64,000 bases of DNA, from contig JASSKH010000023.1 in NCBI GenBank assembly GCA_031763025.1, positions 2,507,501 to 2,571,500 on the forward strand, in the 5' to 3' direction. This document shows positions 675 to 45,544 of the stretch, piece by piece. The stretch is from Macrocystis pyrifera. Its lineage: Eukaryota > Sar > Phaeophyceae > Laminariales > Laminariaceae. The notes beneath the pieces are model-generated. The model was not told where the DNA came from. It did not search any database and saw nothing but the letters and a program-made list of their open reading frames with translations. Position 1 is the first letter of the stretch, and every line of letters begins with the position of its first letter. The translations under genes and the position numbers were made by a program.

Positions 675-676
675 TA

Positions 677-1894: not shown

Positions 1895-2285
1895 CGGGTA
1901 CGGGTATGGAATCACGGAACTTAAAAAAGTTCTGGGTACGGGTATTATAGTCTACTTACAGAACTCACAGAAGTTCCCATACCCCGGGGTATAGTGGCAC
2001 GGCCGTACAGAACTCACAGACGTGCCGGGTACGGGTATGAAGGTCGTACAGAACTCACAGAAGTTCCGGGTACGGGTATGAAAGTCTTCCAGAACTCACA
2101 GAAGTTCAACAGATATTGCGGCACGGGCGTACATATCTCAAATAAGCTCCGGGAAGGCATAAACATGTTGTACCCGTACCCGGGGTACTGTGGCACGGGC
2201 ATACATAACGTACAGCAGAAGTTCCGGGTACGGGTACAAGTGTCGCATAGAACTCACCGAAGTTCCGGGTACGGGTAATATACCT
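1895..2285. repeat. Minisatellite, units near 45 bp
   Basis: Imperfect units built around CAGAACTCACAGAAGTTCC and CGGGTACGGGTA recur through this interval, with clear copies near 1960, 2010, 2055, 2095 and 2245. Short frames on either strand are by-products of the repeat. Confidence 0.75.
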
Positions 2286-2947: not shown

Positions 2948-2951
2948 GTAC

Positions 2952-3509: not shown

Positions 3510-3523
3510 TGGTGAACCCAGAG
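3510..3523 (+). promoter_or_regulatory. Putative primer-binding site
   Basis: TGGTGAACCCAGAG starts directly after the left LTR. The TGG start is what pairing with a tRNA 3' CCA would give. The primer tRNA is not identified. Confidence 0.45.
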
Positions 3524-3594
3524 AGATCGAAGTGCATTGCAGGAGATCGGAGTGTTCGCAATACATGTGCAGGAGATCGGAGTATTTGCAAAAC
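3521..3594. repeat. Short tandem repeat, about 30-bp units
   Basis: Three imperfect units contain GAGATCGGAGT or GAGATCGAAGT, starting near 3522, 3541 and 3571. Confidence 0.6.
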
Positions 3595-3599
3595 TGTGA

Positions 3600-5530
3600 C
3601 GTAATATCATCGTGTTCTTTGTATAATCCCACGTTTGATCTTGGAAAATATTTTTTGGCGCACTTGATTCATGCATATCCATATGTTTTCGTTGTTGCCT
3701 GCCTTGTATGATGGTGATACGTGCAATATGCTGTTATGTATTCACGCCGCCAATGGTGGTCTGCTTGTTTGTTTCGTAAGGCTTTGAAGAGACTTATCTG
3801 GTCAATGCATGCAGGCATACTCGTTGCTCGTGCTCCGTTTGCCTGTTGCTCGTGCTCGTCTGTTCGCTCGTTGTTCATGATCGCACAAACATGCATGTTC
3901 GTTAATTTATGACTGCATGCTATTGACCACATATTGTCTTGAAAATTAAATGCAACCGACAGCTATCGATACAAGCCAAAGGTGCCGTACGTACTAATAC
4001 ACGCATGATCTCGTGTACCGTTTGCCTGGTTAAGTGATACCGGAAACTAACAATGTTGAGCCCTACGCCGTTTGGGCGTATGTAACCCTATAGAACAATG
4101 AATCCCTGGACAACACTGTGCATTGTCGACTGGCAAAGATAGAACTTTCAAGAAAACCACGTACATTTGGGTGAGAAGTATTCTTGCCGCGATGCTTGTA
4201 GACTACACTAGTGGTAATAACACCAATCGTCGTATTATGCACACCAAACGGAAAGTCAGATGCACGTCTGACCCCCTTCGATGTCTCCGGTCGTACCATT
4301 GTGTGTGTTGTATTCCAACCGAGCGTTGCGCTCGAGTACCAGGTACAATACCTGAAGGACTGAAACCTAAGGATAAGAGGAAAGGACAAGAAAAACTGGA
4401 GCAGATGAAGATCGGCTACGCAAGCCCTTGTGGGGCACAGGTCACACGGGGTGAGATAGTTTCAGCTGGACGATGATGAGCTTGCACACAACAGAAGAAG
4501 GTATGGCTTGCTGTGTCCGTAGGGTTCGGGCTAGATGACAGATATACGATGCAGTCCAACCTGATTAGCAACAGGCCAACAGGTATGGCGCGGGTGAGAC
4601 ACAATTGTGGGATTGATCTTTCTCCTTGTTTTGCTGTCGTATCCACAGTCGAAAATACTGATATTTTTCTTGCTGTACGTTATTCCTCGAGCGCAAAAAA
4701 AATGGGGGGGGTAGTCTGTGTCACCCTGATTGACTTAAAATTCAAGTCACACACCAACGCTTGAAAACTCGCGCAGCGCATGCCGTAATATGCTGGGCCA
4801 CCGATGTAAGACTAGGGACATGGACCCAACGAGATACCGGTAGCAAGTATGACATGGTGCATGCCAGCGACGAGCTGCCCGGTGTGTTCGGAAAAGCATG
4901 GAATCTGAGTAGTAAATTGATGTATCTGCTGTATTCATTTAGAGCACTTACCATGGAAAGTATTGCGGTGGGCTGTCAATATATGTACGACTCTATTATC
5001 AATAGTCAGCCCAACCTGATCGACTGCCAGTATTTTTGTTGTCATACATCACATGTACGGCTGTTGTTGGAGAATATCTCGCTGCTGATATCGAAACAAC
5101 AGTAGGGAGCACTTTTGAATCTCATTGCGGGATGAGCACCTCCCGTAGATGGTGCTAAGTGTGAAGCTGGACGTAGTCACTGATCAGCCTACCATGCCAC
5201 GAACACTTGTCTACCGCCGCCCAGGGCAAAGGCGCCTCGACTCGGGAATTACACAGAAAAGCCGTAACTCCGTCTCTACAATGCTGTCAGTAGGCTATAT
5301 ATACACTATAACAGGCACGATGCTCAAAAAGATGAAAAGATAGTACTGACGACCTGCATTGCCGTACACGATTAATATTAATATTAATAATAGTACATGC
5401 AATTTTGGAAAAAAAAAACACAGCAACCATACTGCTGCTGTACGCTGTACCTGCAGTTTTTATATATTTATTTCCCGAACAAGGTTGATTTATCGATACG
5501 GGGTTGGTTGATACCACACCACAGGGGGGG
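3600..5530. other. Interior of the 9.2-kb element, nothing recognised
   Basis: Only unsupported short frames are present, and none shows a recognisable motif. One TACCAGGTA word lies at 4337-4345. Confidence 0.4.
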
Positions 5531-7421: not shown

Positions 7422-7887
7422 TGTGAGCCCCCATACCTTTTATAAGTATCATCCGATGATTGGGTTGTCCGAGAACGAATCTGGCCAGCAGTCAACGCTG
7501 TAACTCAGAGTGTGGGGTGTTCAAACGCGTACTACTGTAGTACGTATATCGCATGATGTTCTCACACTACAGCAGTATAATAATTTCTACTGCTGTAGTA
7601 CGTATTTCGTATGATCTCTCACACTACAGTATAATAATAGCTCAAACTCCTGAAATCCTGCCCGTGGTCACAAAACAGGCTGTAAAAACTAAAATGAATC
7701 TCGTGGTATGTACACCCAGCATAGGGCATAGAGCGGGCTAGAACTTTGGAAAAGAATATCAACCTTGATGTGAAAACAAGTGCTTGTTGCATCGTGCCGA
7801 AAGGACCCCGGAGCGTTGGCTCCTATCATAAGTGGTTTTCCTGCAGGAATTGCGACTGCTCTCCCAGAACTGATAGATGCGTCGTAA

Positions 7888-8716
7888 GACCTATGCCAAT
7901 GGCAACGCGAAGTCCAAAATTTTTCATTCAAAAATATCGTTTTGAAAAAACAGCCGAAAATATCCTCGTACCGCCGCTGTGGGAAAAAAGAGAAAAAAAG
8001 TTTGATTTTTTCTTCTCTTCTTTCTAACGGCTGCAGGCGGCGCAATTTGTTTTCTCTCGTTCCAAATTGTCAACACGCTGATAAAAATCAGCTCGTGCGA
8101 CGATAGATGCTCGATCTCGATATAGACTTAGCCCACGGCCAACCCGCTAGGTGTCTGGCAAGACCAACGAGTGTAGATGACGGCATCGAAGAAAGAAAGT
8201 GAACACATGCTCTAGGGGGCGAGAGCTTGCCGGCGGCGTCCTGCGGTATCCTCCCAAACCTGAAAAGAAGCCTGTTTTTTGCCATTCGAGACGAATCGAG
8301 AATTTTTGTCTTCTGTTTTGTACACACCAGCGGCTAATTGTTTTTTTATCGTACGCCTGGCCAGCGCCCGCCGCACGTCACTGGCCATTGTGTGAAGACG
8401 GTGACCCAAGGGTGGGTCGGAGCCCCTAACGAGCGCACTCCGTTCAGAATTCATGACGCAATCGTTGGTTTGGTCGGCCGATGTCTGCCGAGGACTCGGA
8501 ATCTCGCCGCTTCGGACCAAAGATCGGCCTGAGTTTTTCTCAAGCCGATCTTGACCCAACATCGGCCCCAGATTTGCTTTTTTCGGGCTTTTCCAAAAGG
8601 TGGGAACTTTTTTTTTTCTAAACGTGCCCATAGAAAGCGTGTTCTAAAACGTTTTGGCGGGTATCTTTGGAATTCAAACTTTTTATTGGTACTTCGCTTT
8701 CATTTTGGCATAGGTC
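7888..8716. mobile_element. TAA-flanked MITE, family F copy 1 (PIF/Harbinger-like)
   Basis: It begins GACCTATGCCAAT and ends in the complement TTTTGGCATAGGTC, with TAA on both sides (7885-7887 and 8717-8719). Inverted ends and a 3-bp TAA duplication are what PIF/Harbinger-type elements leave. It has no transposase frame. About 8100-8540 also matches, in inverted orientation, the core of the palindrome-rich element near 32440-33100. The right end (8576-8716) matches the sequence at 62977-63080 plus 63979-64000, where a second copy is interrupted by another MITE. Confidence 0.72.
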
Positions 8717-8719
8717 TAA

Positions 8720-9930
8720 GCGGTGGGTTCGAGATACACTACGACAATCAAACTGAGCAGAGAAAACCTGGCCTTTTTTGATAGGAAAAACCCTCCCCAG
8801 GACGCATACTTATTCGCCGCTTTACTCACTAACGCGGTGGACGAAAAGTCAACCGATGTTGACGCTCTTTTAAGTAGTATCTGACACGGTTCCCAATTTC
8901 GACTGGAAATCTTAGCCTATTGAGTACTGCACTGCTGTACATGTACCTAAGTTTGACCCTAATTCCAAGTGTTTCGCCCGCGCAATGGAAGGGCAGTTGT
9001 AAAAGCCACATGTGCCCAATGCCCAAACTAGAGGTTCCCTGAATGTCAAAAGCAATATGCTAACGGCGCGTGAATTTGCGAACGCGATCGTGTAGGTGTT
9101 GAGCGCACCACGCATCTCTGTTTTATTTGTCCGTATCCGAGTAGCGGGTGATCCGCCTGATCAGAGAAGAATGCTTGAAGACACTAAATTGCATGGCACC
9201 GAATGCCGAGAAATATGTTGGGATCATACTGCTGCTCTCCAGGTGACTATCTCTGATCGCAACGCTGGCACAATAACAGTGACAGTCGAATAAGAGGCAA
9301 GTCGGCACAGAACCCCTGCTACGAGAGTGGTATAGCTGGATACGGCCAAGCATCTATTACGACCAACCAGGCTCCGTAACCCAATATCAATGGGACACAG
9401 TACAGATCATCAGTATTTTGCTATACGCTTTCGTGATGATACCTAGGCTTGGGGATTGTTCACACAGATTCAGTTAACATACAGATACTCGACGTCAGGC
9501 GAAAATGAGGTACATGAGAAGGCGTATACCAGGTATCATAACGTTTAAATACCCACATGTAGGAAGGAACGAGTGCATGTGCAAGTCGCCACACCACGCA
9601 CAGGTACACATTTGTGAGACGCTAAACGGAGATGGAACGTGACGAGCTTTGGTATGATCTGGGCAACCTAACAGGATACTATTTGTCGCTCCAAGTATAG
9701 TGGCCTATTGTTGAAGGAACGAATCGACAGGTGTGATTGGCATGCCAGTAGGCAGTAGACAGTTTCCGTTCTGGGGGGTGTTTGTCTCGACCTTGCTGCA
9801 ACTACTTCCACAAAAACCGTTATACGAGGGGTACGATTTGGAAGTGGTTGTGGACGAATGCCGTTTTACACATGATTGATTTTAGCACGAAATAGTCGCA
9901 CGAGTGGACAGTGTCCGTGCTGGGGGGGAG
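8720..9930. other. Interior of the 9.2-kb element, nothing recognised
   Basis: No supported gene. One TACCAGGTA word lies at 9527-9535. Confidence 0.4.
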
Positions 9931-25700: not shown

Positions 25701-28700
25701 GAGCCATCAGGGCTCGGGCTTCCTTCGCAGCAGCCTTACTAGCACCAGTGTCCTGCTTTGCGGCTGCGCCGAAGAAGATGTTGAAGCTGCCAGGTAGAGG
25801 GCGTGGATGGTTGTTAACGTTGACCATCGGTTCATCCGACAATACGCGAAACCGACTTACAGGGCTCGTGTTCGCTGCCTGGTTCTGTACTACAGCTGAA
25901 CTTTGGCGTGAGTCACGTAAGAGGATTGATGCGAATTCTGTAAAATACATCCGGTCCTCCTCCGTAAACGTTGAATTGGTACAAGTACAAGCACCAGTAC
26001 ATATGTACAGTTTAAACGCACGTACCGTACATACGATTGCAAGTAAAGCAAGGCACAAATATGTGCAAGGTACCAGCACAAAGTACAAGTACAAAAAACA
26101 AGTACATACATATGATATACATGTACAAGCCTCTACTTGTACGAGGTATGATAGTATGATAACTATGTCTGACTAGAGAAACGCGCTACGGAAGGCGTGC
26201 TACCATATTTTTATGAGGCTCCTTAATTGAGGAGAGCTGTATACCTTGTACTTGGCACCCGACTTGGAGAAACACTGTAGGTTAAGCCGACACACAATCC
26301 CATGGGATACTGGTAGGCATTATCAAACATCTACTAATACCGTGGTTGTAATTATAGTAATAGGCTCTAAATATATCGGGCAGTTTGAGGCAGTTGACCC
26401 CTGTCAGTGAGAAACGCTGCCTTTAGTGTCACATTTTAGTCTCCAATTACTCTGCTACTGTTTTGTCTGGATATATAAATCCATTCAGACCAGCATCCGG
26501 TTTTGTTACATCTCAAACGAGCCTCTCACGTGTAGGCATCGGGAGTAACACCCCATCGCGCTGATGCACATTGAAGCATGTCCATTCCTCCAGCGAAGTT
26601 CCCGTCCTGCGATAGCAGAAGTTTGATTGTCACTATGCGGGCTGCCTTGGCTCACGCACGCTTCTCAAGAACGAAGGATGGGTTCGACGAGTGATGGCCC
26701 ACCAACCCGGACAATCCCAACATATTCCGGGCCCGGGCAACACATACCAGTATCAATACTAGGTCACGCCATTTTTCGCGCAAATGTCAACGACAGCACT
26801 TCTCATAAGGAATATCCAGCGCACACTGCACATCGTCTGTTTCCCACAGCAGTCGACACCATTCAAAACTGTAAATGCCGATAGTTTTCTTGGTTTTACT
26901 ATGAACAGCAGCTGTCTATAAACCTGGTGCTTAAAGTATCATACGGGTAGCTGTTCTGTGCTCCCATCTTCCATGGCTACGAATTTCATACCTGCACCAG
27001 GGCCGAAACCACAATGTTGAAGCAAACGCAGCCCAAATCCACGTCACCGTCCACCATTTCGTTATAGACTGCAACACAGCGATCTGCTTGACCATCCAAC
27101 TTCAAGGCGTCCAGGAAAGCCCCGGCCGTGTGTTGAGTCGGGAATTGCCCCGGGCACGCATGGTCTGATAGGCGAATACGATGTATCGGAAGGGAGGCGT
27201 GCGTTAAGGTCTCGTGCAAGCAAACAATAGAAGTTTGTGTTCGGGTGGGTATATCCATATACCCATGTCCTGCGGTGAACAGTTCGTGGGCTGTGTCGCA
27301 GGGTACTGCGGTGAGTAACAAAAGTATGAGCCCGTGGTTAAAAACATGCACATATTGCATACCGGTATGTGAATAGACCGTCTGCCATCGCGCAGTGGAT
27401 CCGACGTGTGATCATGTGATGCAACGCCTTGGTCGGCTGGTAACATAAACAAACGCGGCGGAATTGCTCCAGCCCGGTCGAGCGAGGTCTAAAGATGCAA
27501 GTGGTTTTCGCAGTAAGACCCGGTAACATTCAAAAGGTGTAACAGGGGCGCTACACTGAACAACTATGGCCGTGGCGAATGCACAATGTCGACCACTACA
27601 CCGCGACAACAGTAGACTATATGAGGAGCGTCAAATACACGAATACACGGTGCCGGCGTGATCAAAATATAAATAAGGGCAAATGCCAAAATCAGGTATA
27701 CCTGATCCGTTTGAGCCAAAATCAGGTACAAGCTAAAACCAAGCAAAAAACGCGCGCCACGAGCGGTGCGATGTCCATGGCAATCCGGTGAAAAAAGAAT
27801 GCGCCTAAAGCATTTTAAGCGTGCCACATGGCCTCCAAAACCTGAATTGTTTTGTTTTCTTCAGGTGTAGGTACCACGGGCTCCACTTGGACCTGCAAAG
27901 AGTCACTATAAATATGCTTCGTTTGTTTCGCCACGGCGGGAGCGCCAAGAGTATTTACTCTGGCCCCCCCCCCTCGTGTTGACAGCTTTAAAGCTTCCAG
28001 ACCGGCCTCGCGGAACCGCCTGCTCGGCACGAAATTATCTTGACGTACGTACCAAACCTGAGACCACCTCGACGCGGGGTGGTGCAGACGAAACGCCGAG
28101 TGTCCATAGTGCTGTAAAGACTGCTGTGAACATAGAAAACAACAAAGTACACACAACAACTATTCATAACTGAAGCACATCGCACACCCCAAAGGGGAAA
28201 AAGTGAAACCAGCGTACGCATGTATGCATGTATACACGTACTTTTACGTACGACGTACGAGTACAGAGTTCATACGTCAATAGGCAGACGCATACGGAGA
28301 GAAAACACAGTGTGCGTATGGCCTCTCTGATTGGTTCAAAGTTGGCTAAAGCTAGACAGAGTTGAAAAAATCAGGTGTACCTTGGCCTTTTCGTGCCAAA
28401 ATCAGTTACAATGTCAGCTTGGCCAATAGCAGGGCTCCTGGTGTGTGTTTTGTACTTGATTTCAGTATTACCTGTTTTTGGCACAAAAGTGGCCACGTAT
28501 ACCTGATTTTGGCAAAAACCCTAAAAATAAAGAAACAACGTACGAGCGAATGCAAGTTTCTTGTTTTGACGGCTCATTTTTTAGAGACCCGTTTCCTGCT
28601 TTTGGTAACACCCGCCGCTGCCATAAAGGTTTCAATCCCAGGTATCAGAACAGTACTAGTGGTAGCGTATTGGAGCCTGATCCCATGTCTTCTGTCTTGT

Positions 28701-31700
28701 GACCGAAAAACAACCACAACTGTTTTTACAGGGACTCATATTTTGCGGTGTCGACTATATTAACAAGTACCAGGTATCTTACAAGGTTCCCCTCCGGGAA
28801 GTGCCTAGGAGAGTGGCGCAAGGTGATGATTCAGCGAACACTCCGTATTCGCCCAGCAAATGCATCGCAGATTCGACTACTGAAGGTACTGAGGTCGCGC
28901 CTCAATTCCATCAATTACTAGTTCTCGTATGAAGTACCTGCACACCTGTATAGAACTGCATTCACCCATCAATAATGTGAAGAATACACACACAACAGAT
29001 TTTGGGGACAAACTATACTGATCGTGGAATTAGTCTGGGACCACTACTACAATAACGTGAAAGAGGATACCGGTAGGTGGGTACTGATGCTGAACAGATG
29101 GCTCACGGCGATCAATTCAATGCTTGCGGCGTAAACGTAAATACACAAGAGTTGCGTGAGCTCGAGGTGGCGAAATAATACTTTGTGACCGGATAAGTGA
29201 AAGACAGCACATACTGCTGTATATACATTCCCGCAAAATAAATGTTTCGAGGTGCTCAGGGTAAAATTAAAAGTTTCACAGACAATGCTCCCAGTACTCG
29301 GTGTCCCGAGTTGGAGTTCTGCGGCAAAAACACTGCGAATACCGGGAAGGCCTAATATTGCGAGTACTGAGAAGATCCAAAGACTGAGAATACTGAGAGG
29401 GTGAGCAGCACGGAACTCCGAGAGTACAAGCAAATATGTACCAGCAGTATCGAAACCCGAAACACTTCGGAGTACAGGCACTATCCGCAGTACAGAACCT
29501 CGAGCTACTGGATATTGAGAGTACTCGCAGTACATATTCCCGAAATACTGCCACTACTCTTAGTACTCGAGTTGCCCCCAGCGAAAGTAATTTGCTCCAA
29601 CTCCCACTCGTGTTACCATCTGTAAGTGTTTTCTGCCAAACAACGGGCATGAATTGTCGACGACACGGTGCACAGATGGGCGAAGTATACTTCATACTTC
29701 AAGTATACTGGGCATCTTTTGGGAGTATTTTGGTATTGCGAGTACTCGCAATACGAACATGACCAACTGACGAAATACTGCCAGTTCTCGCAGTACCCGC
29801 AATACAGAACCCCGAGATACTTGAAGCACAGGGAGTTTCCACAGTAGTGAATCCCGAAATACTCAGAGCCCGGAAATATCCACAATAAGTAATACAGAAC
29901 CTCGAAATACTGCGAGTACTCGCAGCATCTGCAGTACAAACCGGAAATACTGCGAATGCACCTACAGTATTTTTCTCGAATATACTTTGCTTTACTCCCA
30001 AGTATTGGGAGCATCTGTGAAAGGGTACGGTTTGAACGCACGCCACACGTAAGCGCGCCCAAACTCCGTGGCCGTGCGTAAAAACACGCAACTTGTATAT
30101 ATCATACGAAGGTAAAAAAAAAAAATCAGAAAAGAAAGGTGGACGTACTGATAGAAAATAAATCGAAATCTGAAAAAAAGGGCAACGTCGGAATCGAACC
30201 TCGGAAATGAAAGCATTTTCGAGCGCAGACACTCTCTACTCTACAACACTCGTACAAGTAGCAAATGAGGGTTTGCGCAATCTAAACACGTTGCAGGATC
30301 TCGTAAGAGTAGCTTATACTGGTACGACTGCATGTACAGCAGTACTGTTGTAAAATACCATGTGAGCAGAAGATACGAGTACTGCGACACAGGAACGTGT
30401 GCTGCTGCCCTTTCAGCTGGCTCTAGGATCGGTCAGCAGTGTAGGACACACCGCAGTCAGTACTACCAGGTAGGCTTTATACGAATGCTGCTGTGCACGA
30501 TGATGTGTGTGTGTTCTTCACATTGTACGAACGATTCGTTGTACTCGACTATATAGTACACATCGATCCGGGGATGATCGGTACGGAGCAAAAAATGCCC
30601 GTCACATTGCGGCAGATGGCAGATACGTGCATGGGTCAATGTCAGTCAATGTCAATCAATGCCAACAACAACGAACACTGGTACTGAGAGTACAGCCTGG
30701 ATCTGCCACACGCGCACAGTACACCGCCTGCTGCTGTTGTTGACGCACTACACAGCTAGAGCAGTGGCGATGATGGATCACACACAGCCACACGCAGAAG
30801 AAGCAGCAGAGAGGTGATTGATGGTGTGGTGGCGGCGTGGCAGAAGATGGATTACCCACCGCAGGCTCCGATAAACACAACCAGTCACAGCAGTACAGCG
30901 GATATGGAAGTGTCGCACACGCACGGCGTATGGGCGGCAGCGTTGTAACGTTGTGGTCCGTGCATGTTGTCTGTTGTCTACCTGGTATATGTTTGGCTGC
31001 GTGCTCATGAGAGCCTAGGGCAAAAAACAGACAACAGTTACCGCTATGTACGTATCATGGTACAAAATAAGGCCTTTCGTACTGAAACCAGGGAAATCGT
31101 CTTGTCCACTCCCGCCGAAAAAACAGTTTGAGCGCATGCCACGCGCTCCAAACTGCACGGATCGCGCCCACCTCGACCAATGTGTCCGGCCGGGCTTCCC
31201 GTGTCGACTACTTGGCGTTTCGTCAAAAAGTGCTCGTACGAAGAGATAAGTTCGAAAAAGTACGAAAACTTCACACCTCGGATAACGTAACACTCGGATA
31301 ACACTATTTACGTTGTGGGGCCTAACACAGGAACGTGGTAACGTACTAACATAGTGTTAGCACTAGAGAAGCGATCACGGCAACGCGGTAACACAGTGTT
31401 AACTGAAAACCCACGAACGTGCACGAGCCTTAACGTTATGTTGCTGCTCGGTCTCGTCCAGCTCTGGTACAGTAACATTATGTTATGCCGTGATCAGTCC
31501 TTGAACTAACACCTTAACACAGCAGTGTTAGGCTTGGACCAAACACGTACGTTGTCACTCTAACATGCCCAGATCGATATCCGCATATTTACTGGCACGA
31601 TAACATAATGTTATTGTCGACGCAGCGTTAGACGTAACACAATAACATGTTACCCCTAGGAGGAGTGTTATACATAGCACCCTAACATAACGTTACCATG

Positions 31701-34700
31701 TTCGCCAGCACTGCTAACACATAACATTGTGTTACAGATAACGCACTAACGTAACATAACGCAATGGCCAGCACTACTAACACTACGATATCTGGACCCC
31801 CCATCTGATTGCCTTAGGGTCGGATAACGTAACACTTAACGTACGTTAGATACGTTACAGTTTTTAGCCGGCCCACACGTGACATTATGTTAGGATGTTA
31901 GCCTAAATGCGGAAGTCTCTGTAACATTATGTTACGGTGTTACCGTCAGTAAAGATCTGATGGTAACATTCCGTTACCGTGTTACCATAAAAACCAATCC
32001 GGGTCTAACTTTATGTTACTGAGTTACCGTTGGGGCCGAAGTCGTTCTAACGTAATGTTACTACGTTACCCTTTGGATCTTCCCGAGATCTAACATGTGT
32101 TACCCGTGTTAGTGGTAAAGCGGGCGTGTGGGAGTAACATAGCGTAGCCGTGTTATCCAATTTCGCCGGCATCCCAATAGGGGATACCTACAAAAAGATC
32201 CCCGGGGGAGGATAGCATGGCATCCCCAGTAAAAACAACGCCTCCATATTTTAAAACCCCAAAACAGGGGATATTTAGGAGGGATCCCCGCAAAAATAAC
32301 GCCTCGTTTTTTTGTGGAAACCCCGCCAGTACGTTATCCATGGCAGATTTTATACGTCACGGGACAGCTTTCGCGGACTTTAATTGCGCGCCGCGCAATG
32401 TATGTAAAACCCCTGTTCTGGCAGGTACTGGAGCAATGTATAGTCATTCCCATTGACTAGAGCCAACTTTTATGAGAATCCTCGGCAGACATCGATCGAC
32501 AAAACCAACGACACCGTCATGAAACCTGAACGGAATGCGCTGGTTAAGGTCTCCGACCCAGCCTAGTGTCGCAGTGCTCACACCTCGGTCGGTGATATGT
32601 GGCGTGGGCTGACCAGGCGTCTGGTAAAAAAACATTTTGGCACCGGTCTGGAGAAGACAGACGACAAAAAATCTCTACCCCTCTCCGATGGCAAAAAATA
32701 GACCATTTTTCAGGTTTGACATCGATCGACAAACCCAGCGATTACGTCACGAACTCTGAATGAAGCGAGAGGCTCCGACCCACACTAGTATCACAGTTCT
32801 CACACCTCGGTCGGTGATATGTGGCGTGGGTGGGCCAGGCGTCTACTAAAAACATATTTGGCAGCTCGTGTGTAGAAAACAGACGACAAAAACTCTCGAT
32901 TCCTCTCCGTTGGCACGAAACAGAACTTTTTGAAAGCTTTGACGAAGAGCATAGGACGCCGCGACCAACCTCTCGCCCCCTAGACCACGGATTCCAATTA
33001 TACCTCCCAGGCCATAATTTACACTCATTGGCCTTGCCCGGTACCAAGCTCGTTGACCGTGGGTGGATTATACGTCGAGATCGAAGGTCAATCGTCGCGT
33101 GACTGCGGGTGTGCGAGCTGCGAGCTGTGTCTTCTAGTTTGTGTGCGGCGTGATTTCACGTGGTTCCCGTGGTTCCCGTTAATACAGCGATTTTATTGGA
33201 TGATGCCCCCGTCGTTCGCGTTATTTCAGCCATTTGATTGGAAGATAGCTGGCGTCAACTGCCCCGTGATATTTTAGACTTGCCGTTATCCATCTATAAC
33301 ACATTACGTTATCCATCTATAACGTAATCTGCACACTCGCACGTACGAGTTAACACGGCAGTAACATATTGTTGACTTTAGATTGGGGGTGTACGTTATC
33401 TACTAACTTGTGTCACTACATACATTGCATACGAGTTGACAGCATTAACATAATGCTATTAATAGTGTTTTATCGATCATATACATACGTTATCCGTTTG
33501 ACGTATGTATGTTATGTTGTTATGGTAGCAAGACTTCCGTAATACCCTCACATAACGTCGCTCGAAACGGACTGCTGCTGCGGCTGATACAGTAACATAA
33601 TGTTAACGTTGTATTGACCATGCACGTCATCTCTCTAACGTCTGTTACGATAGCCCCTAGGAATTTCACTAACACACTAACATAGTGTTATGTACGCGTT
33701 TATTTGGCCGTGTACGTTATCCGTTGAAAGGGTGTTACGGTAGCAGGAAGAATCCCGCTGACACACTAACATAACGTTACTCGCTACGGGCTGATGCCGC
33801 TAACACGGTCACATAATGTTAACGTTTAATTGACCATGTACGTTATCCCTTCAACATGTGTTACGATTGCCACCAGGGATTCCGCTAACACGCTAACATA
33901 GTGCTACTCGCTATGGGCTGCATACCCTAACACCGTAACACATATACTGCGGTCAATACGAGATCAAGGCAAAACTCTAACATAATGTTACGCAATCGCC
34001 CGTCAATATCATAACACACTAACACTATGTTATCACAAAATCCAGAAAATAGTTAACGTAGTAACGTAATGTTACGTTTTTTTTTCGCTGACGCCTAACA
34101 TTAACATGAAACGTTAAGTGTTAACGTTATCCGAGGTGTGAAAACTTCATAAACATGAATATTACAACAACAAACAACAACAGCAGCTACATTATTAATA
34201 AATTGTCCACTGTTCACAATCCACCAACGCACACAAGTTGGCGACAGATATAAGTAACTAGCCACGTACGTGAGTTCCAGCATATATATCTGGAACCTGT
34301 ACGTATAATGGTTGGAGGTACGTATAATACTCACTGAAGTACGTACCTGGTTTGGCGCTGGCACGCCGACACTGGTAGTGCTTGGAACTTCAACTTGGAG
34401 CCCGCAACATTGATGCGCGCGATCGGCGGAAAAAACTGAGCCTTCAGTTACTAAGCCAGTACGTAATTGATACTGCTGCTGTATGTAGTGGACTTTAGGT
34501 CGGCGGCAGTCGTTATGCTTGTTCAGTAATATCCGTAACTGGCATATAGAACGCGATTTAAAATACAATACACAAAGATAGGTACAGTAGTATAGCCACT
34601 TTTCCCCTGGCCTGGCAGGGTCCGGAGATATTCGTCAACATGAGCTATCAACAGCAAAATAGTTATGGTATGACACCAGTAGCCAACAAACCCTGCAACT

Positions 34701-35273
34701 CACTGCGCCTCGTCCAAGTTGCCATGCTACCCGGCATCAAGCCGCCAACAACAGGGCAATATAGACAGCCACGACCACATTTCCAAGGCATCACCTGGTA
34801 GGAACTTCGACAGCGTCAGTGTCACAAACAGCGTCTACGTACAGAAAGAGAACACCTCAATCCCCAGTTATCTCATAACGCACCATAAAAAAATTGTCCG
34901 CCAAGGCCGTCTGTCCGCAGCGACTTGCTGCCTTAAGTAGGACGTCTTGGATGCGCAAAGGGTCCGCGTGCGTTGCATCTGACTGCATCCTCACGTACTC
35001 CGTTTCCTTGTCGAGAGATTTTAAAACTGAGGCGAGAAGCCGCTTGTCACGGTTGCGAGCCGCCGAAAGCAGCTTGAAAAAATACTGCTTGCGCCGCTTC
35101 TCCAGCGCAATGGATGGTACCTCTCTTGCCTGAGGTGAACCCACACCGTCCAGAGGATGGGTGTGATGCTGCCAAGGACGAGGCGGCCGAGAGGCACCAA
35201 AGCGGGCAAACTGCTGCGGGGAGAGGAGACGGCCGACTGTGCTGCATGATGCCACGAACGTAGAACACGTCAT
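16746..35273 (-). CDS. Split gene for a P-type pentatricopeptide-repeat protein
   Basis: About 15 exons on the minus strand rebuild a protein of roughly 790 residues. PPR proteins bind single-stranded RNA in mitochondria or plastids, one helical-hairpin repeat of about 35 residues per base, and act in organelle RNA processing or translation. The start ATG (35271-35273) is the first in frame after a stop at about 35385. The first 40 residues lack acids and are rich in Ser, Arg and Pro, as an organelle-targeting peptide would be. Repeats are clear in exons 3-6, 9-10 and 12-14. No DYW, E or SMR domain is seen. Nearly every exon is bounded by AG and GT, and phases agree along the chain: 0, 1, 0, 2, 0, 0 for exons 1-6 and 0, 0, 2, 0, 1, stop for exons 10, 12-16. 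Doubtful points are exon 2 (40 bp), the exon 7-8 join, the donor of exon 9, and whether another exon lies between 19602 and 18203. Introns 2, 10 and others carry mobile elements. There is no sign of an operon or a close neighbour gene. Confidence 0.8.
17117..17210 (-). CDS. PPR gene exon 15
   Basis: Acceptor ATTATTAACAG, donor GTACTT. It reads VGKQLEDGTQSGRAPFRV then MQLLHRQMEDALE plus one base, a helical C-terminal region. Confidence 0.75.
17359..17470 (-). CDS. PPR gene exon 14
   Basis: Acceptor CCGTGCTACAG, donor GTGCGG. Joined to exon 13 it completes a motif: CGRAQRPDAAMKVVYALRKD then KIAPSSTLSNSYFKAKK. Phase 0 at the end. Confidence 0.82.
17567..17730 (-). CDS. PPR gene exon 13
   Basis: Acceptor CCTTTAACAG, donor GTGAGT, phase 2 at the end. 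It encodes GAVVFWRQHIRSALGPASSG, an acidic linker, then SIKTLRMEKKRKADLFSAYC and GLLHV. Confidence 0.78.
17988..18203 (-). CDS. PPR gene exon 12
   Basis: Acceptor AATCATTCAG, donor GTGAGC, 72 codons, phase 0 at both ends. It reads DARRFGRDVKEWWRM, a Gly/Ser-rich linker, then SAEMCKQLYTEAVDRGIRIN and LCNAVMVGFGSDLT, a late PPR motif. Confidence 0.75.
19200..19300. repeat. Tandem duplication, about 60 bp
   Basis: CCCATTGCCGCGAAAGCACA / CTCATCGCCGCGGAAGCACA, each followed by ACAAATT and ACGxCCCA, with GCGCGTCATAAA / GCGCATCATAAA before. Two units lie beside the MITE in a PPR-gene intron. Confidence 0.75.
19312..19419. mobile_element. 108-bp MITE, family M copy 1
   Basis: Ends TTACGGGGGTCCATAGTTAA and its near-perfect complement, with TA on both sides (19310-19311 and 19420-19421). 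Nearly the whole element can fold on itself. TA duplication and this size fit Tc1/mariner-type MITEs. It lies in a PPR-gene intron. Copies: 39572-39675 (104 bp) and the long relative at 58903-60179. Confidence 0.85.
19422..19491 (-). CDS. Possible extra PPR exon next to a MITE (doubtful)
   Basis: After TTACCGTCCAG the frame reads RKVRARQAALSSFAVGILED, like the second helix of a PPR motif, and it starts in the right phase. No good donor follows before the 108-bp MITE at 19312-19419. Either the MITE truncated this exon or the segment is intronic; exons 10 and 12 already join in phase without it. Confidence 0.25.
19602..19735 (-). CDS. PPR gene exon 10
   Basis: Acceptor CTATTTTTGCAG, donor GTGAGT. 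It encodes GAEAALLLLEEMKVSGTVPD and IFTYTTVISGMARAE, one near-perfect PPR motif. Phase 0 at the end. Confidence 0.85.
20770..21028 (-). CDS. PPR gene exon 9
   Basis: Acceptor GTGCACCACAG. It reads ITLTALVRLQCSREDVYHVI, then ARKLRIRPSLAFLNSCIRAL and VYGACQVMDRIKSLDNMKPD, then AISYNSLIFALVQE: two PPR motifs. The donor may be GTGGGT at 20769 (phase 0) or GTCAGT four bases later (phase 1); only the second joins in phase to exon 10. Confidence 0.82.
21976..22004. repeat. Dispersed 28-bp word, copy at 35551-35580
   Basis: GAAATACGTCAGCTGTGAG followed by TTCGACTGA occurs here in an intron and again inside the SMART-B LTR near 35551. It marks a short shared insertion or repeat. Confidence 0.7.
22418..22570 (-). 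CDS. PPR gene exon 8 (5' end uncertain)
   Basis: Open frame with CIIEDYIQCSRLPLEAYKL and MLVAVAASRSSHAPFRHLVG, ending before GTGGGT in phase 2, which fits the one-base start of exon 9. The start may be near 22570 or, after TACATACAG, near 22510. PPR character is weak here. Confidence 0.5.
23836..24005 (-). CDS. PPR gene exon 7 (3' end uncertain)
   Basis: Acceptor TTTGTTGCAG, phase 0. It reads VGDTLGVIEVFNKYLRQDEA then VVPSLVSYNLVRLCCRRSDW. Possible donors are GTGTCA (exon end 23836) or GTAATG (exon end 23806), both in phase 2. A different frame stays open further down to a GTATGT donor near 23741, but it does not look like PPR. Confidence 0.65.
24498..24665 (-). CDS. PPR gene exon 6
   Basis: Exactly 56 codons between TATGCAG and GTGGGC. 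It holds VVPDVISFNVGIAAFMA, then KKAFELLDEMHRRGIRPRAD and TFNSILTGMTK, the clearest canonical PPR motif in the gene. Both ends are phase 0. Confidence 0.9.
25591..25786 (-). CDS. PPR gene exon 5
   Basis: Acceptor TACCTGGCAG, donor GTGAGG. It encodes FNIFFGAAAKQ, an Ala/Lys-rich insertion, then ALMAHLGVAPDRITVN and AVKEGRLDEAIETFGRLLDG, about one and a half PPR motifs. Phase 0 at the end. Confidence 0.85.
26530..26606 (-). CDS. PPR gene exon 4
   Basis: A 77-bp exon after CTATCGCAG, ending before GTGAGAG in phase 2. It reads DGNFAGGMDMLQCASARW then GVTPDAYT, the second half of the motif begun in exon 3. The phase joins exactly to exon 5, giving DAYT-FNIFF. Confidence 0.85.
26992..27164 (-). 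CDS. PPR gene exon 3
   Basis: Acceptor CCTATCAG, donor GTATGA. It contains one full PPR motif, from TAGAFLDALKLDGQADRC through YNEMVDGDVDLGCVCF to the start of the next (NIVVSALVQ). Phase 0 at the end. Confidence 0.8.
27677..28521. mobile_element. 845-bp TAA-flanked MITE, family E copy 1
   Basis: Ends GGGCAAATGCC-AAAATCAGG and, inverted, GGGTTTTTGCC-AAAATCAGG, with TAA on both sides (27674-27676 and 28522-28524). The internal motif AAATCAGGTATACCTG is palindromic and recurs near both ends. No transposase frame. A TATA-like CTATAAATATGC lies at 27906-27917 region. A second copy in the opposite direction is at about 63083-63978. It sits in the long intron of the PPR gene. Confidence 0.75.
29278..29985. 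repeat. Degenerate minisatellite of CGAAATACTG / GAGTACTCGCAG words
   Basis: Words such as CGAAATACTGC, GAGTACTCGCAGTA and GCAGTACAGAACCTCGA recur with an irregular spacing near 25 or 50 bp over 700 bp. Overlapping frames here on both strands are repeat-derived. Confidence 0.75.
31272..34140. mobile_element. 2.87-kb TIR element filled with TAACAT-ATGTTA palindromes
   Basis: The left end CACACCTCGGATAACGT is repeated inverted at the right end (ACGTTATCCGAGGTGTG within 34122-34140). AAAACTT flanks both ends (31265-31271 and 34141-34147), a 7-bp target duplication. Between them lie more than 25 imperfect palindromes of the form TAACATNATGTTA, spaced about 25-90 bp, in two arms (31300-32158 and 33296-34130). 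A core of about 1.1 kb (32160-33290) lacks them, has no transposase frame, and is partly related to MITE family F. It sits in the PPR gene's long intron. Family unknown; a 7-bp duplication is unusual for the common superfamilies. Confidence 0.75.
32440..33105 (-). repeat. Two diverged copies of a family-F-like segment
   Basis: GACATCGATCGACAAA-CCAnCGA, CTCCGACCCA-nCTAGT, and CACACCTCGGTCGGTGATATG followed by GTGGCG occur twice (about 32490-32690 and 32720-32900), and match 8290-8510 in inverted orientation. This is part of the core of the palindrome element. Confidence 0.65.
34795..34834 (-). CDS. PPR gene exon 2 (tentative, 40 bp)
   Basis: Lies after CTTTCTGTACGTAG and before GTGATG. It reads TLFVTLTLSKFLP plus one base. 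It is proposed because it converts the phase-0 end of exon 1 into the phase-1 start needed by exon 3. The first intron would be only 49 bp, so this exon is a guess that transcript data could settle. Confidence 0.4.
34884..35273 (-). CDS. PPR gene exon 1 (start, targeting peptide)
   Basis: Starts MTCSTFVASC and reads 130 codons to ADNFFM, then donor GTGCGT. Residues 1-45 look like a transit peptide. From about residue 55 the chain is helical and basic (EKRRKQYFFKLLSAARNRDK), then RIQDVLLKAASRCGQTALA, which fits a degenerate first PPR motif. Phase 0 at the end. Confidence 0.75.
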
Positions 35274-35289
35274 GTTGATTTTGTCCCAA

Positions 35290-35509
35290 CGCTCATCTGA
35301 AGCCCACTTGTTTCCACAATCGTGTGACGTTTCGTTGATGGAAGAAGGGTAGGAGCTATATGTCCACGTGCATCCGTATTGCTGCTACACGCACACACTT
35401 GTAGCTTGAGGGCTCTGCTGTGTCACAGCTGGCCTGGGGTCGAAAAGTACTATATTGCACCTCCCGCTATCGTAACGTCAAGGGCTAAGTTGGAACTCCC
35501 TGTGATGGA
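35290..35509 (-). other. Region upstream of the PPR start
   Basis: No TATA box or other promoter mark that I can support. A cluster of cysteine-, threonine-like codons is open up to the TAG near 35385 but has no ATG. Confidence 0.3.
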
Positions 35510-36535
35510 TGTGGTGGAAATCGAGTTTATAAGCCTTATTTTATAAATTTTGAAATACGTCAGCTGTGAGTTCGACTGATTAAATAGTTGATACTCAACT
35601 TTGCAAGCTGCGTAATACGCCTAGCCTTATTATAAAATAAATGTAGCGTTTGTTACGTACCAGGTAACATTTTTAGTCTACATTTCCCTACAATGGCGTC
35701 GCAGGCAGGGCGTGAGATTATGAAGAGCGAGATCCGTGGTTCGATTCTCTCGCCTTCGTCCCCCGAAAAAAAAAAAAAAAAAAAAAAAAAAGGAAAAAAA
35801 GGGGAATATCTCATGTTCAAGAACCTGTAAAACTCACTCACTTAGAAAACACCTAGAAAGGAACGATGAGAGCAATGCGATCATTGCATACTGAGTCCGG
35901 TACCGAAAAGTCGGAGGTAAAACTTGCATACTGAGAGTCTCATCGGGGTTCCTGACTTGCTCGCAAGGAGAGACAAGTCAGGTATAGTGAGGGAGAATGT
36001 GGTGGAAATCGAGCTTGTAAGCCTTAAATTCATGTAGCGTTTGTTACGTAACATTTTTAGTCTACATTTCCCTACATGGATGAATATTCGAATATTCAAG
36101 ATTTTTATATTTTTAGTCTACATTTCCCTACAATGGCGTCGCAGGCAGGGAGTGACATTATGAAGAGCGAGGTCCGTGGTTCGATTCTCGCCTTCATCCC
36201 CCGAAAAAAAGGGAAAAGGGGGAATATCTCATGTTCAAGAACCTGTAAAACTCACTCACTTGCATGGTAGAAAACACCTATTATAATAGAAAGGAAAACG
36301 ATGAGAAGAGCAATGCGATCATTGCATACTAGGTCCAGTACCGAAAAGTCGGAGGTAAAACTTGGATAGTCAGAGTCTCATCGGGGTTCCTGACTTACTC
36401 GCAAGGAGAGATAAGTCAGGTTTAGTGACGGAGAATGTGGTGGAAACCGGGTTTGTAAGCCTTAAAAAGTCATGCATGTTATTATGTGTAGCGTTTGTTA
36501 CGTAACATTTTTAGTCTACATTTATTTTCCCTACA
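35510..36535 (+). mobile_element. SMART family B: tandem array with three LTRs
   Basis: LTRs begin TGTGGTGGAAA and end TTTCCCTACA: 35510-35692 (enlarged by a 100-bp insertion), 35998-36076 and 36436-36535; a bare LTR tail lies at 36110-36132. Two interiors of about 300 bp start ATGGCGTCGCAGGCAGG, whose TGGCGTCGC would be the primer-binding site, and end in a purine tract, GGGAGAA or GGAGAA, before the next LTR. The interiors share GAAGAGCGAG, TCCGTGGTTCGATTCTC, a short poly-A tract, and TCATCGGGGTTCCTGACTT. No coding. Shared LTRs suggest recombination between copies. The first LTR carries an extra ACCAGGT absent from its siblings. Confidence 0.72.
35550..35640. repeat. Insertion inside the first SMART-B LTR
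   Basis: Sequence between AAGCCTTA and ATGTAGCG that the sibling LTRs lack. It includes the 28-bp word also found at 21976-22004. Confidence 0.55.
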
Positions 36536-36544
36536 TGCTTCTAC

Positions 36545-37430
36545 AAACGCCAGACCAGAAAACCCTCGCACCACCGCTCGTCATCGAAGCAGCAGGCCAG
36601 AGGTATAAGCAGACGGCCCAGTTCTTATGCCTATGCGGCATTATCCACGAAAACGCTGACCTCTCGCTCGAAATCGACCGACGGATCCGCCTCATGCGAG
36701 CATGCCTCAAACGGTTCGGCCCGGAGCTGTATGATAGGACGACCGCCCCCCTTAGTTAGCCTGAAAGTCCGAATGCTGAAGACCGAGGTGATTGAGACCC
36801 TGCTGTACGGGTGTGTGACGTGGACCCTCAGAGCGGAACACTTTGCCAAGCTTCGAACGTCTCACCACCAAGTCCTGTTGCGAGTCATTGGCTTCCAGCG
36901 CCGACTTCGTACTGACCATACCACCCTCTCGTACGCGAAGGCCCTCAAGATGACACGCGTTGCGAGAGCATCGAACCGACCATCCGCAAGCGGCGTCTCT
37001 TCTTCGGGGGGGGGGGGTGGCACGGCAAAGCAAGGATCGATTACCCAGTCGGGTAATGTTCGGGACGAGGGCTGGTGGGGAGAACCCGAGACCTGGCGAA
37101 CAGGTTAAGACTTGGCATAGGTGCATAGTCGAAGACCTTAGGGAGTTCCGAGCCACCGAAGGGTCAACGGAACTTGCTCCCTTGGTGTTTGGAGTTGAGA
37201 CGGCGCTGTGGCCCACTGCTGCAAAAAAGGCGGGGAAGTGGTACCGGGGGATCCACGAAGCAGCCGAACGGTTCATGGTGAGGTGGCACGAGGCTGAGGC
37301 TGAGCTGAGTAGGCAGCGCCGCGCATCAGCCGTGGGTGGTGTCCAAGGGAATGGGTGGAGGAGGGGCAACAAGAGGAGTAGCAGAAACCCGACCAAGGGA
37401 ATGCGGAGAGGGGGGGAACAGGAGTAGAAG
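36545..37430 (+). pseudogene. LINE reverse-transcriptase 3' fragment
   Basis: The C-terminal part of a non-LTR retrotransposon polyprotein. Seen in order: ADLSLEIDRRIRLMRACLKR (about 36660), VSLKVRMLKTEVIETLLYGC and VTWTLRAEHFAKLRTSHHQV (about 36755-36870), LLRVIGFQRR, then GVETALWPTAAKKAGKWYRG and HEAAERFMVRWHEAEAELS (about 37190-37310). These are the post-catalytic end of a jockey/CR1-like reverse transcriptase and a short C-terminal tail. The fragments sit in different frames, so at least two frameshifts are present; the catalytic domain and the 5' part are missing. It abuts the third SMART-B LTR. A related piece lies at 52190-52350. Confidence 0.7.
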
Positions 37431-42417: not shown

Positions 42418-43596
42418 TCAGCTATCCACGGCGGCACCTCGAGGTTCATCTACGTTACGCTGGACCCCCCGTGCAAACGCGCTAGCCAAGTGAATTTGCA
42501 GACACCAAGAACCTCGTACAGCTCTCGTCGAAGTCGTGTAGCGCGCCGGAGAAAGAGGAAGCTTGATTGGTCCCGGGTCGTCCAAAAATCGAACCAGATA
42601 TACTCCATCCGTCGGTGTAGTTGCGCTGATTTTCCCGAGCCACCACAGACCGTCGTCGCCCTTGTACCAAAAGTGGGCCCCGTTGGGAAGTACAGTGTTG
42701 CTGTATCGGCGGAGCCAATCGGCGTGCGATACGCAACCGTAACCGGGTGCCAGATACCGCTCGCCGTTACTCCGAGAAAGCTCCCGTTGTGCCGCGCCAA
42801 TTCTCATTCGGCGATACAGGCGGTTGGTTTGGCGGTGTTGATTCGGGGTGCCGGCCCAGTAGCGCAAAATGGCGTGGCGAGAAAGCTGAAGGTCCATTTC
42901 CCGTTCCCAGGATGGCCGGGATAGTCCCTTCCAGTGTGTCTCGTACATCACCGCGATGACGCCACCTCGACCTCTAACCGATTGATGTCCAGTAATCTTT
43001 TCCACTTCGAGTCGTTCAAGAGGGGTCGAAACGTCGTCCTCGGTGACGTGGTACGGAGGGGATTTCTTGGAGAAATTGTTGAGCACGTATTGCGTCAACC
43101 CCGCCGGCAAATACTTCGGCATGTCGCCACGGTCGTGGGGGTTGGCACAGGGCTTGCAGCGTTGAACAGATACGCGCCGGCGAGCCTCAGCGCCGGGCAT
43201 ATCGGAAGGAAGATCCAAATACAGGAGCTTTGCTCCGAGAGGAGATCCATCCGGGGTGTCCGTTGAGGAGCAGGGGCCAACTGCGAGAACTTTGTAGGGG
43301 CCCGTCCAGTTGAGTGAGAGTTTGGCCTTGAGGACCTTGGCGTCCGTGTCTGGTTTCGCGCCCTGCCGGATGGTGGCCGCCGTATTGTACACCCACACCC
43401 AACCACCAACGTCAAATTTGGGGACCGGACGCAGAGCGTCGGAGAGGGCGGAGTTGCGGCGGTTCACGCGAGCGACAGTGAGGGCGTGGTGTTCTCGAAC
43501 GATTTCGTACGCGCGCGCTGCTGGTGGTCCGTCGCCAAGTCGCAGTAGGCGAGGTGGTCGCGGGCTAAGCTCCGGTGGCCGGCGACTCCAGCACAT
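42418..43596 (-). pseudogene. Gypsy integrase C-terminal part with chromodomain
   Basis: Continues the integrase after a frame change near 43510-43520. From about residue 28 (RAYEIVREHHALTVARVN) it reads the integrase tail, then the GPY module (LNWTGPYKVL, about 95-104), a chromodomain-like segment (about 195-248: LEVEKITGHQ, YETHWKGLSRPSWEREMDL), and a Tudor/SH3-like stretch (about 305-350: HFWYKGDDGLWWLGKIS). Chromodomains target such elements to marked chromatin; the extra Tudor-like end is less usual. The stop lies at 42418-42420. The domain calls rest on residue patterns, and the Tudor-like one is the least sure. Confidence 0.75.
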
Positions 43597-45284
43597 TCGA
43601 AAATCGTGAGTGGGAGGCGCGGGAGCCGACCCATATGTACCCCGTTGGGAGCCAGACCCGTGGCGGCACTGACGGAATTGTTGTACGCAAATTCGACGTG
43701 AGGGAGCTGTTCATCCCAGTCGTTTTGGAGCTCGTTGACGACCATTGCCAACATCTGGGCCATCGTGTGGTTTACACGTTCCACCCCACCGTTGCCGTTT
43801 GGGTGGTAGGAGCTGGTGACAATTTTTCGAACCCCGAGAAGCTGATATACGGCGTGCGAAAGCTTGGAGCAGAACTGGAGGCCGTTGTCCGAGAGGATAC
43901 TGCGCGGGCACCCCCAATGAGGGATATACCGGTAGATGAGAATGTTAGCCGTGCCCTCAGCGGTGAACTCTGCCGCTGTGACGGCGTACATGTCAGTTCG
44001 GCGGTTAAAACGATCAGTGAAAAGCAAGATGTAGGTATTTCCTCGGGGCGTCACCGGGAGGGGGCCGAAATAGTCGATGCTGACGGCGATGCCGGGCCCT
44101 TCTGGCAAGGGCAACGTGATGGAGGGCCACCGGACCGTCTGCCGCGAGGTTTTCCGTGTCTGGCACTTTAAGCAGTTGCGTAGCCACCACCGGGTGCAGA
44201 TGCTCATGCCGATCCACCAGTAGAAACGTTCGAGCATACGTAGGGTGCGCGCGGTTCCTAGGTGGCAGGAAGCCATAGAATGGCAAGCCTGCATGACCCA
44301 GGGGCGCATGAGCAGCGGAACATAAATGCGAATAGGCTCGTCGTTCAACAAGCAGGCCGTACGACCCACCGGGCGTTGCGTATCCAACGCAGGGGGGGGA
44401 GACGGCTGTCGGACAACTAGAACGATGCCCGCGTCAGTGGTGTGCAAGCGGCCTTTGTTGGCCAGCTCTTGAACTTCCGAAAAGGGAGGGCGCTGGTGGG
44501 AAGGAAAACCTGATAAAAAGTCGTCTGGCAAAACTTCCGGTCGGCCAAGGGCTATGTAGCGCATGGCGGCATTGCACGCGGGCTCAGCCTGTTGTTCCCG
44601 AGCCCAGTCGGCGTGCGAATAGCGCACTGCGGAATCACCGAACTGAAACTCGGCAGCTGCGCCGAGGGCGTCCAAGTCGGTCGAGGTGACGGGAGGTGCG
44701 TCAGTTGGCGGTGGAAGTCGTAAAAGAGGAGTTCCCACGGGCTCGGTGCAGTTGCGGCCGGACGGGATGGGTACCGTCGGGACGGACGAGGCGGCAGGAG
44801 TCGGGGCCAAAACGACGGGTGCGGGCGGTCGCGGCCGTGGGGCTCGCAGCGGGGTGATAGCACGCCGGGCTGGTGGTCTAGGGGTCCCGCCGGGCCCGAA
44901 GCCATAATCAACAGCAGGCGGCACGGCGCCAGCGGCGGCGGCTGTTCGTCGGCGCGTCCGCGATGAGATGCGGCCTGAAGACGGCAAAACGTTCGGAGGC
45001 GCCGGGTTGCCAGGCGGCGATGGGGTAGACGCGGCCGGATCAGTGATCACGGCGGAATCTTCTCCCTGTAGAGTGCTCGTCGGGAGAGGAGCGCGCTGGG
45101 CGACAACCGTCGCTGCAGCGGGGGCTTCTACAGAGCCCTGGTCGCCCCTGGAGGGTACGACAAGAACCGAAGCAAAAGCGGAGTTGGCGGTGGGGGAGAA
45201 AGCCCTCACGCCAAGACGGCGAACGACGGTGGCGACGGAAGCAGATACACGAGTCCTGACGACGACGCCACTTGTTAAGATCAT
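43464..45284 (-). pseudogene. Gypsy integrase frame, N-terminal part
   Basis: A 606-codon frame. The proposed start ATG lies inside the LTR, so the true N-terminus is unclear. Residues 1-200 are Ala/Pro-rich and of low complexity. Residues 335-374 hold the HHCC zinc-binding domain (H335, H341, C371, C374). The catalytic core has D404 (SIDYFG), D466 (LSDNG) and E502 (GGVERVN), with 35 residues between the last two, the classic DD35E spacing. Integrase cuts and joins the cDNA copy into host DNA. The frame ends in the wrong register near 43515, within a GCGCGCGC run, and the protein continues in the overlapping frame 42418-43596. No protease or reverse transcriptase precedes it. Confidence 0.85.
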
Positions 45285-45544
45285 GCGGGCGGGACACTTT
45301 GTATCCCTGGAGAGGTTTGCCTATTTAGTCGGTACTCGGTGGGACTCACGTGTGATGCTTAGATGGAAGAGGAGCAGTTTTATTCCTTTCGTACACACGG
45401 AGACTGAGACCAAGCTCGTGGCCCTCTGGAAAACCCCTGGTTTTCCACCCAAGATACGCCTTCCAAGTATTATAAATACGATCCCAGTGCCTGAACCCAG
45501 GTAATTACCGGGCTTTCAACCTCATTCAAGGCAGTATCATAACA
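45273..45544 (-). repeat. 5' LTR of the integrase-bearing gypsy copy
   Basis: On the minus strand, TGTTATGATACTGCC to GATCTTAACA. Confidence 0.8.

Follow-up and report, generated by a model that had tools for sequence, protein, structure and literature searches.

A high-copy Macrocystis transposon family with arms of phased TAACRY half-sites

Subterminal repeats are known in several transposon superfamilies, and why an element should bear them in excess of what recognition of its ends requires is an open question. It is raised in an extreme form by a unit at 31272-34140 of a 64,000-nucleotide stretch of the brown alga Macrocystis pyrifera (GenBank assembly GCA_031763025.1, contig JASSKH010000023.1, positions 2,507,501 to 2,571,500; the whole stretch is referred to as the window), in which the short half-site TAACRY recurs in dense arrays. 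The unit belongs to a family with CA...TG ends, inverted repeats of at least 17 bp and a length of ~1.9 kb, nearly all of it taken up by two inverted arms of half-sites. We consider this family to be, most likely, a high-copy, non-coding, non-autonomous cut-and-paste DNA transposon whose arrays would recruit a transposase acting in trans; the binding, the transposase and the superfamily are what we infer from the DNA. The family offers a natural high-copy case with a clean grammar of half-site, pair, triad and 42-bp step, in a group of organisms whose transposon biology has been described as underexplored (PMC12477816).

The element and its array grammar

The window unit is bounded by a 17-bp terminal repeat, CACACCTCGGATAACGT, which is exact at both termini, bearing out the inverted ends claimed in the original prediction. 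Allowing up to three mismatches, this sequence has two matches in the 64-kb window, namely the two termini, where 0.29 would be expected. The flanking AAAACTT reported with these ends is likewise present on both sides (31265-31271 and 34141-34147). The parts of the unit are as follows.

31264-31271, no strand: left copy of the target duplication, 8 bp, GAAAACTT; read directly, its length set by other copies
31272-31288, + strand: left terminal inverted repeat, 17 bp, exact; from sequence match and genome-wide copies
31323-31800, + strand: outer left TAACRY array, triads forward-forward-reverse; from half-site mapping
31820-31836, + strand: internal copy of the terminus, TCGGATAACGTAACACT, which opens the second array of the left arm (repeat family D16)
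31880-32155, + strand: inner left array, triads forward-reverse-reverse, with 42-bp steps at 31880, 31922, 31964, 32006 and 32048
32161-32341, no strand: element centre, short and nearly free of arrays, with GGGGAT/ATCCCC repeats; present in the family consensus too
32342-33284, no strand: nested transposon, 943 bp, ends GGCA...; from alignment to copies and consensus
33294-34115, + strand: right TAACRY array, triads forward-forward-reverse, with 42-bp steps near the end (33978, 34020 and 34062)
34124-34140, - strand: right terminal inverted repeat, exact; from sequence match
34141-34147, no strand: right copy of the duplicated target, AAAACTT, most simply explained as GAAAACTT without one G

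The unit had been described as a single element of 2.87 kb with its core as an integral part. Instead, it consists of a ~1.92-kb element and a nested transposon of 943 bp: the core is the nested insertion, and the family consensus runs uninterrupted at that place. In alignment, the window copy matches another copy, L060 (1,902 bp), at 93-94% over its two outer parts, with an extra stretch between them. Removal of the nested element and one flank repeat leaves about 1,917 bp, and the consensus of 13 copies is 1,912 bp long.

Imperfect palindromes of the form TAACATNATGTTA with up to three mismatches occur 51 times in the window, against an expectation of 29.0 ± 5.5, and none of 100 shuffles reached 51. 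The 26 that lie inside the unit agree with the earlier count of more than 25, and the 25 outside it all carry three mismatches; at up to two mismatches, all 22 palindromes of the window fall inside the unit. Both arms together, read on both strands, contain 111 TAAC, whereas 8.2 would be expected from the remaining window. The next base is A or G in 105 of these and the sixth is C or T in 105, and the half-site is therefore TAACRY. It occurs 104 times inside the unit (36.2 per kb) versus 78 times elsewhere in the window (1.28 per kb). In the 1,912-bp consensus, 113 half-sites make up 34% of the bases, and half-sites extend even into the terminal repeats (TAACGTAACA).

Each array unit is built on an inverted pair, TAACRY-N-RYGTTA, to which a third half-site is mostly added one 8-bp step aside, and the units recur with a period of 42 bp. 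Around the 20 palindromes of the consensus, the third half-site lies upstream in 12 cases, downstream in three, on neither side in five and on both in none. Pairs of half-sites on the same strand of the window element number 31 at a distance of 42 bp, 21 at 84 bp and 16 at 126 bp, compared with a null maximum of 12 over all spacings. Since 42 bp corresponds to about four helical turns, consecutive units are presented on the same side of the double helix. When 23 units were placed in register, pairwise identity was 72% in half-site columns, 50% in the 3-base gaps of the triads, which include R and Y places, and 28% in the 21-bp spacers between units, which are thus near chance identity. These units had been picked by their palindrome, so the palindrome columns are biased upward; the third site, on which no selection was made, reaches 61%. 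The left arm is composed of two arrays of opposite polarity, the inner one beginning with a copy of the terminus and aligning to the inverted right arm (score 84; 100 shuffles reached at most 41). Larger internal duplications are also found within the element (repeats D5 and D10).

Copies, target sites and nested insertions

A search of the genome (537,376,219 bases) with the 17-base end at up to one mismatch gave 595 + 633 matches (1,228), and the same pattern reversed, used as a control, gave 0 + 0; this difference identifies a high-copy transposon family. From 34 fetched regions, 28 carry both ends, the window copy included; of the others, two are the halves of a 10.8-kb pair, two are short stretches and two have ends that do not face each other. 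Each of the 28 two-ended copies contains 56-107 half-sites, compared with 0-2 in its flanks, and in 26 of them half-sites are most often spaced 42 bp apart. The exceptions, L042 (without an intact palindrome) and L051, are both among the most diverged copies. At 30 end loci, several of which are the two ends of copies also counted among the 28, half-sites occur at 37.6 per kb over the 600 bp just inside the end, compared with 1.65 per kb outside.

As most copies were fetched by their ends, it is unsurprising that these have ends in common. The strict triad, which occurs 975 + 907 times in the genome (reversed control, 0 + 0), gives a separate handle. We used 96 of 100 listed triads, those on contigs C124-C132, for which the list of exact ends is complete, and omitted four located elsewhere. 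Sixty are found no more than 3 kb inward from an exact end, one lies only outward of such an end and 35 do neither, while the 3-kb inward zone makes up at most 0.57% of C125-C132. Five array loci picked from the 36 triads that are not inward of an exact end all proved to belong to the family: each has at least one recognisable end, at 1-3 mismatches, and two of the five show both. The arrays belong to the element.

Target duplications of 5-10 bp were sought at 19 non-redundant insertions, with nine copies that share a flank counted once; this grouping was loose, and L060, which also has an exact 8-bp duplication, was dropped from the 19. A duplication of 8 bp is exact in 8 of 19 and present with at most one mismatch in 13 of 19. 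Seven bp fits two, the window copy and L050 (within an AAAT repeat), none of the 19 fits 5, 6, 9 or 10 bp, and no length from 5 to 10 bp fits L035, L042, L043 or L057. Two of the copies found through arrays also have 8-bp duplications, exact in L097 and with one mismatch in L098. The 7-bp duplication originally assigned to the window copy is thus not the length of the family, which is 8 bp. At the window site, the left flank reads GAAAACTT and the right flank AAAACTT; given the 8-bp duplications of other copies, this is best read as 8-bp GAAAACTT with one G lost beside GTGTG, and a true 7-bp event at this site is possible. A 9-bp reading of the window flank, with AAAACTTCA on both sides, was rejected in view of the other copies. 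Transposon types with 7-bp duplications (hAT7 and Kyakuja) were considered first, and the argument from length fell when the other copies showed 8 bp.

All 13 targets carry A at position 2, and 11 of the 13 carry T at position 7. Among further copies, L060 (GTATTTAC) has T and A at these positions, L097 (AAACTTAC) A and A, and L098 A and T. With 1,228 end matches and independent insertions bearing 8-bp duplications, the genome-wide check for other copies with the same ends came out positive, and mobility of the family is well supported.

Nine copies (L036-L041, L044, L056 and L064; C126:2.92-3.24 Mb, plus C127, C129 and C138) have one flank in common (TGTTGTGAAGTTTG / GAAGTTTGATCACT), and therefore probably represent one insertion carried along by another repeat or a duplication. 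The carrier repeat of an insert is TGTTGTGAAGTTTGATCACT. One copy sits inside an older family copy, and no far end was found in the stretch fetched. A scan of viral contigs gave one end match (L001, phage-like by eye and without an array) and three matches to the array pattern (L002-L004); scanned with the core piece, these contigs gave no match.

The nested 943-bp element starts with GGCAGATTTTATACGTCACGGG and finishes with the inverse of GGCAAGTCTAAAATATCACGGG. It is flanked by GTTATCCAT at 32333-32341 and 33285-33293, a duplication of 9 bp, or of 10 bp if read as CGTTATCCAT, which suggests a Mutator-like habit. Its interior is 71-77% identical to window 8097-8497 (-), and a related piece is also present in L042 at another position. 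The same interior is common to an inverted-repeat stretch at window 7887-8717 (arms AGACCTATGCC...). A frame there, 8212-8640 (-), is partly shared with the second core unit, with a stop position in common, and is perhaps an old coding piece; it has no Pfam match. We had considered the core as a transposase remnant, an idea that fell when it gave no Pfam match and turned out to be a nested element.

One further repeat (about 0.5-2 kb) sits at different places in L043, L048, L053 and L064, so that the family is a recurrent target of nested insertion. The family copy L041 carries a nested, long open frame of LINE type at 672-4421, in which Pfam recognises reverse transcriptase and endonuclease, and a LINE fragment related to it by eye lies at window 36515-37105. 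At L070 (reverse complement 8064-9265), frames resembling histones H2A and H2B by eye lie at least ~0.7 kb past the right end. Elsewhere in the window, 43464-45317 (-) contains a Gypsy-type integrase frame with an H2C2 zinc-binding domain; among the best 120 of its 183 matches, relatives named by organism are found only in Ectocarpus.

Frames at 34857-35384 (-) and 26986-27411 (-), on either side of the element, are consecutive by eye in one brown-algal PPR protein, P0122, with a short unmatched gap between them. This order of exons places the element in the intron between them, in agreement with the intron location first proposed. The PPR protein of the window has a relative in Hapterophycus.

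What the arrays may do

The simplest reading of the array, which rests on its layout, is that a dimeric DNA-binding domain would occupy TAACRY-N-RYGTTA, with successive units lying along the same helical face. A transposase supplied from elsewhere, or a protein partner of it, could bind each pair as a dimer via a small DNA-binding domain; cooperative loading along the phased arms might then bring the two ends together, and long arrays would let gene-less copies compete strongly for scarce transposase. The idea of a protein-binding array, raised in the original prediction, is strengthened by the 42-bp register, the conserved half-sites and the near-random spacers, while the binding, the dimers, the cooperativity and the transposase are all putative. 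The exact 17-base end and the triad provide a handle for finding the partner protein in brown algae.

Several results weigh against recruitment of a transposase in trans. An autonomous copy was not found among the 30 + 20 ends screened of 1,228, so that a full-length relative encoding a transposase, whose existence had been suggested as a check, did not emerge from this sample. In L041, L053, L070 and L093, the array-free interior is an insertion flanked by array on either side; L069 and L071 show a single end, with no partner within 9.8 kb and with unexplained interiors. In Pfam, ten frames from L041, L042, L053, L069, L070, L071 and L093 yielded no transposase, the sole match being the reverse transcriptase of L041; smaller frames of these interiors were inspected by eye only. 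Furthermore, singleton changes of copies relative to the consensus are as frequent in sites (0.240 per column) as in spacers (0.245). The array is thus a property of the source that is not maintained in each copy, and the data are consistent with neutral decay of single copies after insertion. No difference between sites and spacers was seen in the 1.6-kb shared-flank group. Among eight diverged copies compared with the consensus, L051 (616 of 1,852 mask shifts reaching the observed difference) and L079 (334) are unremarkable, and L042 keeps its sites worse than its spacers (1,823 of 1,852).

A bolder version, which we put forward tentatively, is that a protein encoded by a transposon forms a filament or condensate on the ~113 phased half-sites. 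The element would then be a mobile array resembling a centromere or partition site, which captures transposase or shields the copy from silencing, beyond the needs of end recognition.

Somewhat more doubtful is that the arrays serve as landing sites for an accessory protein of a parent transposon that protects or marks the DNA, in the manner of the VANC anti-silencing proteins of Arabidopsis VANDAL elements or of the brown-algal Sola protein with ParB and DNA-methyltransferase parts. VANC21 binds a 9-base motif that is arrayed densely in the non-coding regions of its own family (PMC5735166), and Ectocarpus Sola1-1 has a ParB-like and DNA-methyltransferase protein, a kind that may bind and modify its own transposon (PMC12477816). 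The number of sites, far above the three required in Ac, also fits this model. However, VANC motifs are arrayed in the same orientation and the sites here are palindromic. The extension of half-sites into the terminal repeats and their occurrence in both arms suit a transposase, and marking would help gene-less copies only if silencing limits transposition.

A functionless local tandem-repeat expansion inside a transposon would account for the 42-bp tandem structure and the larger duplications D5 and D10, as well as for single copies that decay alike in sites and spacers and for the three of eight diverged copies that keep their sites no better. This explanation is already disfavoured, and we regard it as very improbable: spacers between units share 28% identity against 72% for half-sites, and five of the eight diverged copies keep their sites better, whereas a neutrally decaying repeat would lose both alike. 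In these eight copies, mismatch to the consensus is 14.6% in site cores and 18.2% elsewhere, a pooled difference that was reached in 28 of 1,852 shifts of the site mask. It was never reached for L078 (identity 81% in sites, 66% in spacers) or L011, and was reached in 16, 25 and 35 shifts for L007, L055 and L005, respectively. Broken down by consensus base, better retention in sites is seen for A, C and G and no difference for T. The eight copies are not a random sample, having been chosen for divergence, and in so repetitive an array the alignment itself may favour sites; site conservation in diverged copies is therefore only suggestive, and the comparison of units in register is the stronger evidence.

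Two further explanations are highly unlikely. A foldback or hairpin element, with palindromes acting as DNA or RNA structure, would agree with mutually inverted arms and dyad sites, but hairpins need neither direct third half-sites nor a strict 42-bp register, and the two arms are far from base-for-base inverted copies. Host transcription-factor sites that drive or time expression and are spread by the element would agree with a short half-site, dimer geometry and many copies, but these copies lack any gene to be expressed, and dense half-sites are restricted to the element (1.28-1.65 per kb outside).

Comparison with known transposon systems

The 17-base end CACACCTCGGATAACGT was not found in the literature text searched, in which 10-base pieces of it do occur. 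Nor was a description of such arrays seen among the listed literature on kelps, brown-algal inverted-repeat transposons, subterminal arrays and algal KDZ (Kyakuja-Dileera-Zisupton) elements; the family may already be an unnamed entry of the Ectocarpus library, which is described in supplementary files.

Mutator elements duplicate 9-11 bp, and none of the 19 insertions here fits 9 or 10 bp, exactly or with one mismatch. VANDAL elements differ from this element in duplication and ends. They resemble it in having dense, family-specific arrays of a short motif in non-coding DNA, but VANC motifs lie in one orientation and are bound by an accessory protein (PMC5735166). Galileo/Foldback elements of the P superfamily likewise have long, internally repetitive inverted arms with several THAP sites, the extra ones being thought to confer specificity (PMC3688188). 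Galileo-G, however, has three THAP sites in its terminal repeat compared with about fifty half-sites per arm here, and its repeats are long direct repeats.

The element is probably hAT- or KDZ-like. It resembles hAT elements (Ac/Ds with AAACGG, Hermes with AAGT/BED sites) in its 8-bp duplication, short inverted repeats with CA-type ends and many short subterminal sites. Ac and Hermes both have an 8-bp target duplication. Ac transposase is recruited via repeated short subterminal sites, three of which have been shown to be required, and non-autonomous copies that retain little but the ends are known for Ac. The contrast with hAT elements drawn in the original prediction holds for site number, phasing and arrays that fill nearly the whole element, but as a contrast in kind it was overstated, since Ac and Hermes also use repeated subterminal sites. 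In Hermes, a pair of BED domains binds a quasi-palindrome made up of two sites at rigid spacing (PMC10368747), a site pair like the one described here; 8 bp is stated as the usual hAT duplication (PMC12730594). Different from hAT are arrays that fill a ~1.9-kb element with 113 half-sites in 42-bp steps with a triad. Targets differ as well, being mostly nAnnnnTn here as opposed to the hAT preference nTnnnnAn, although the target of L060 agrees with nTnnnnAn and that of L097 has A in the seventh position.

KDZ elements share CA..TG ends with a duplication of 7 or 8 bp. Kyakuja has CA...TG ends and a 7-bp duplication and Zisupton an 8-bp duplication, while fungal Kyakuja, unlike the present family, is described in the same source as lacking inverted repeats (PMC12730594). 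KDZ elements are abundant in Ectocarpus, with 6,403 copies (PMC12477816). For KDZ, no report of such arrays was found in the literature searched. Because of this abundance in Ectocarpus and a target preference mostly unlike that of hAT elements, we lean slightly toward KDZ over hAT.

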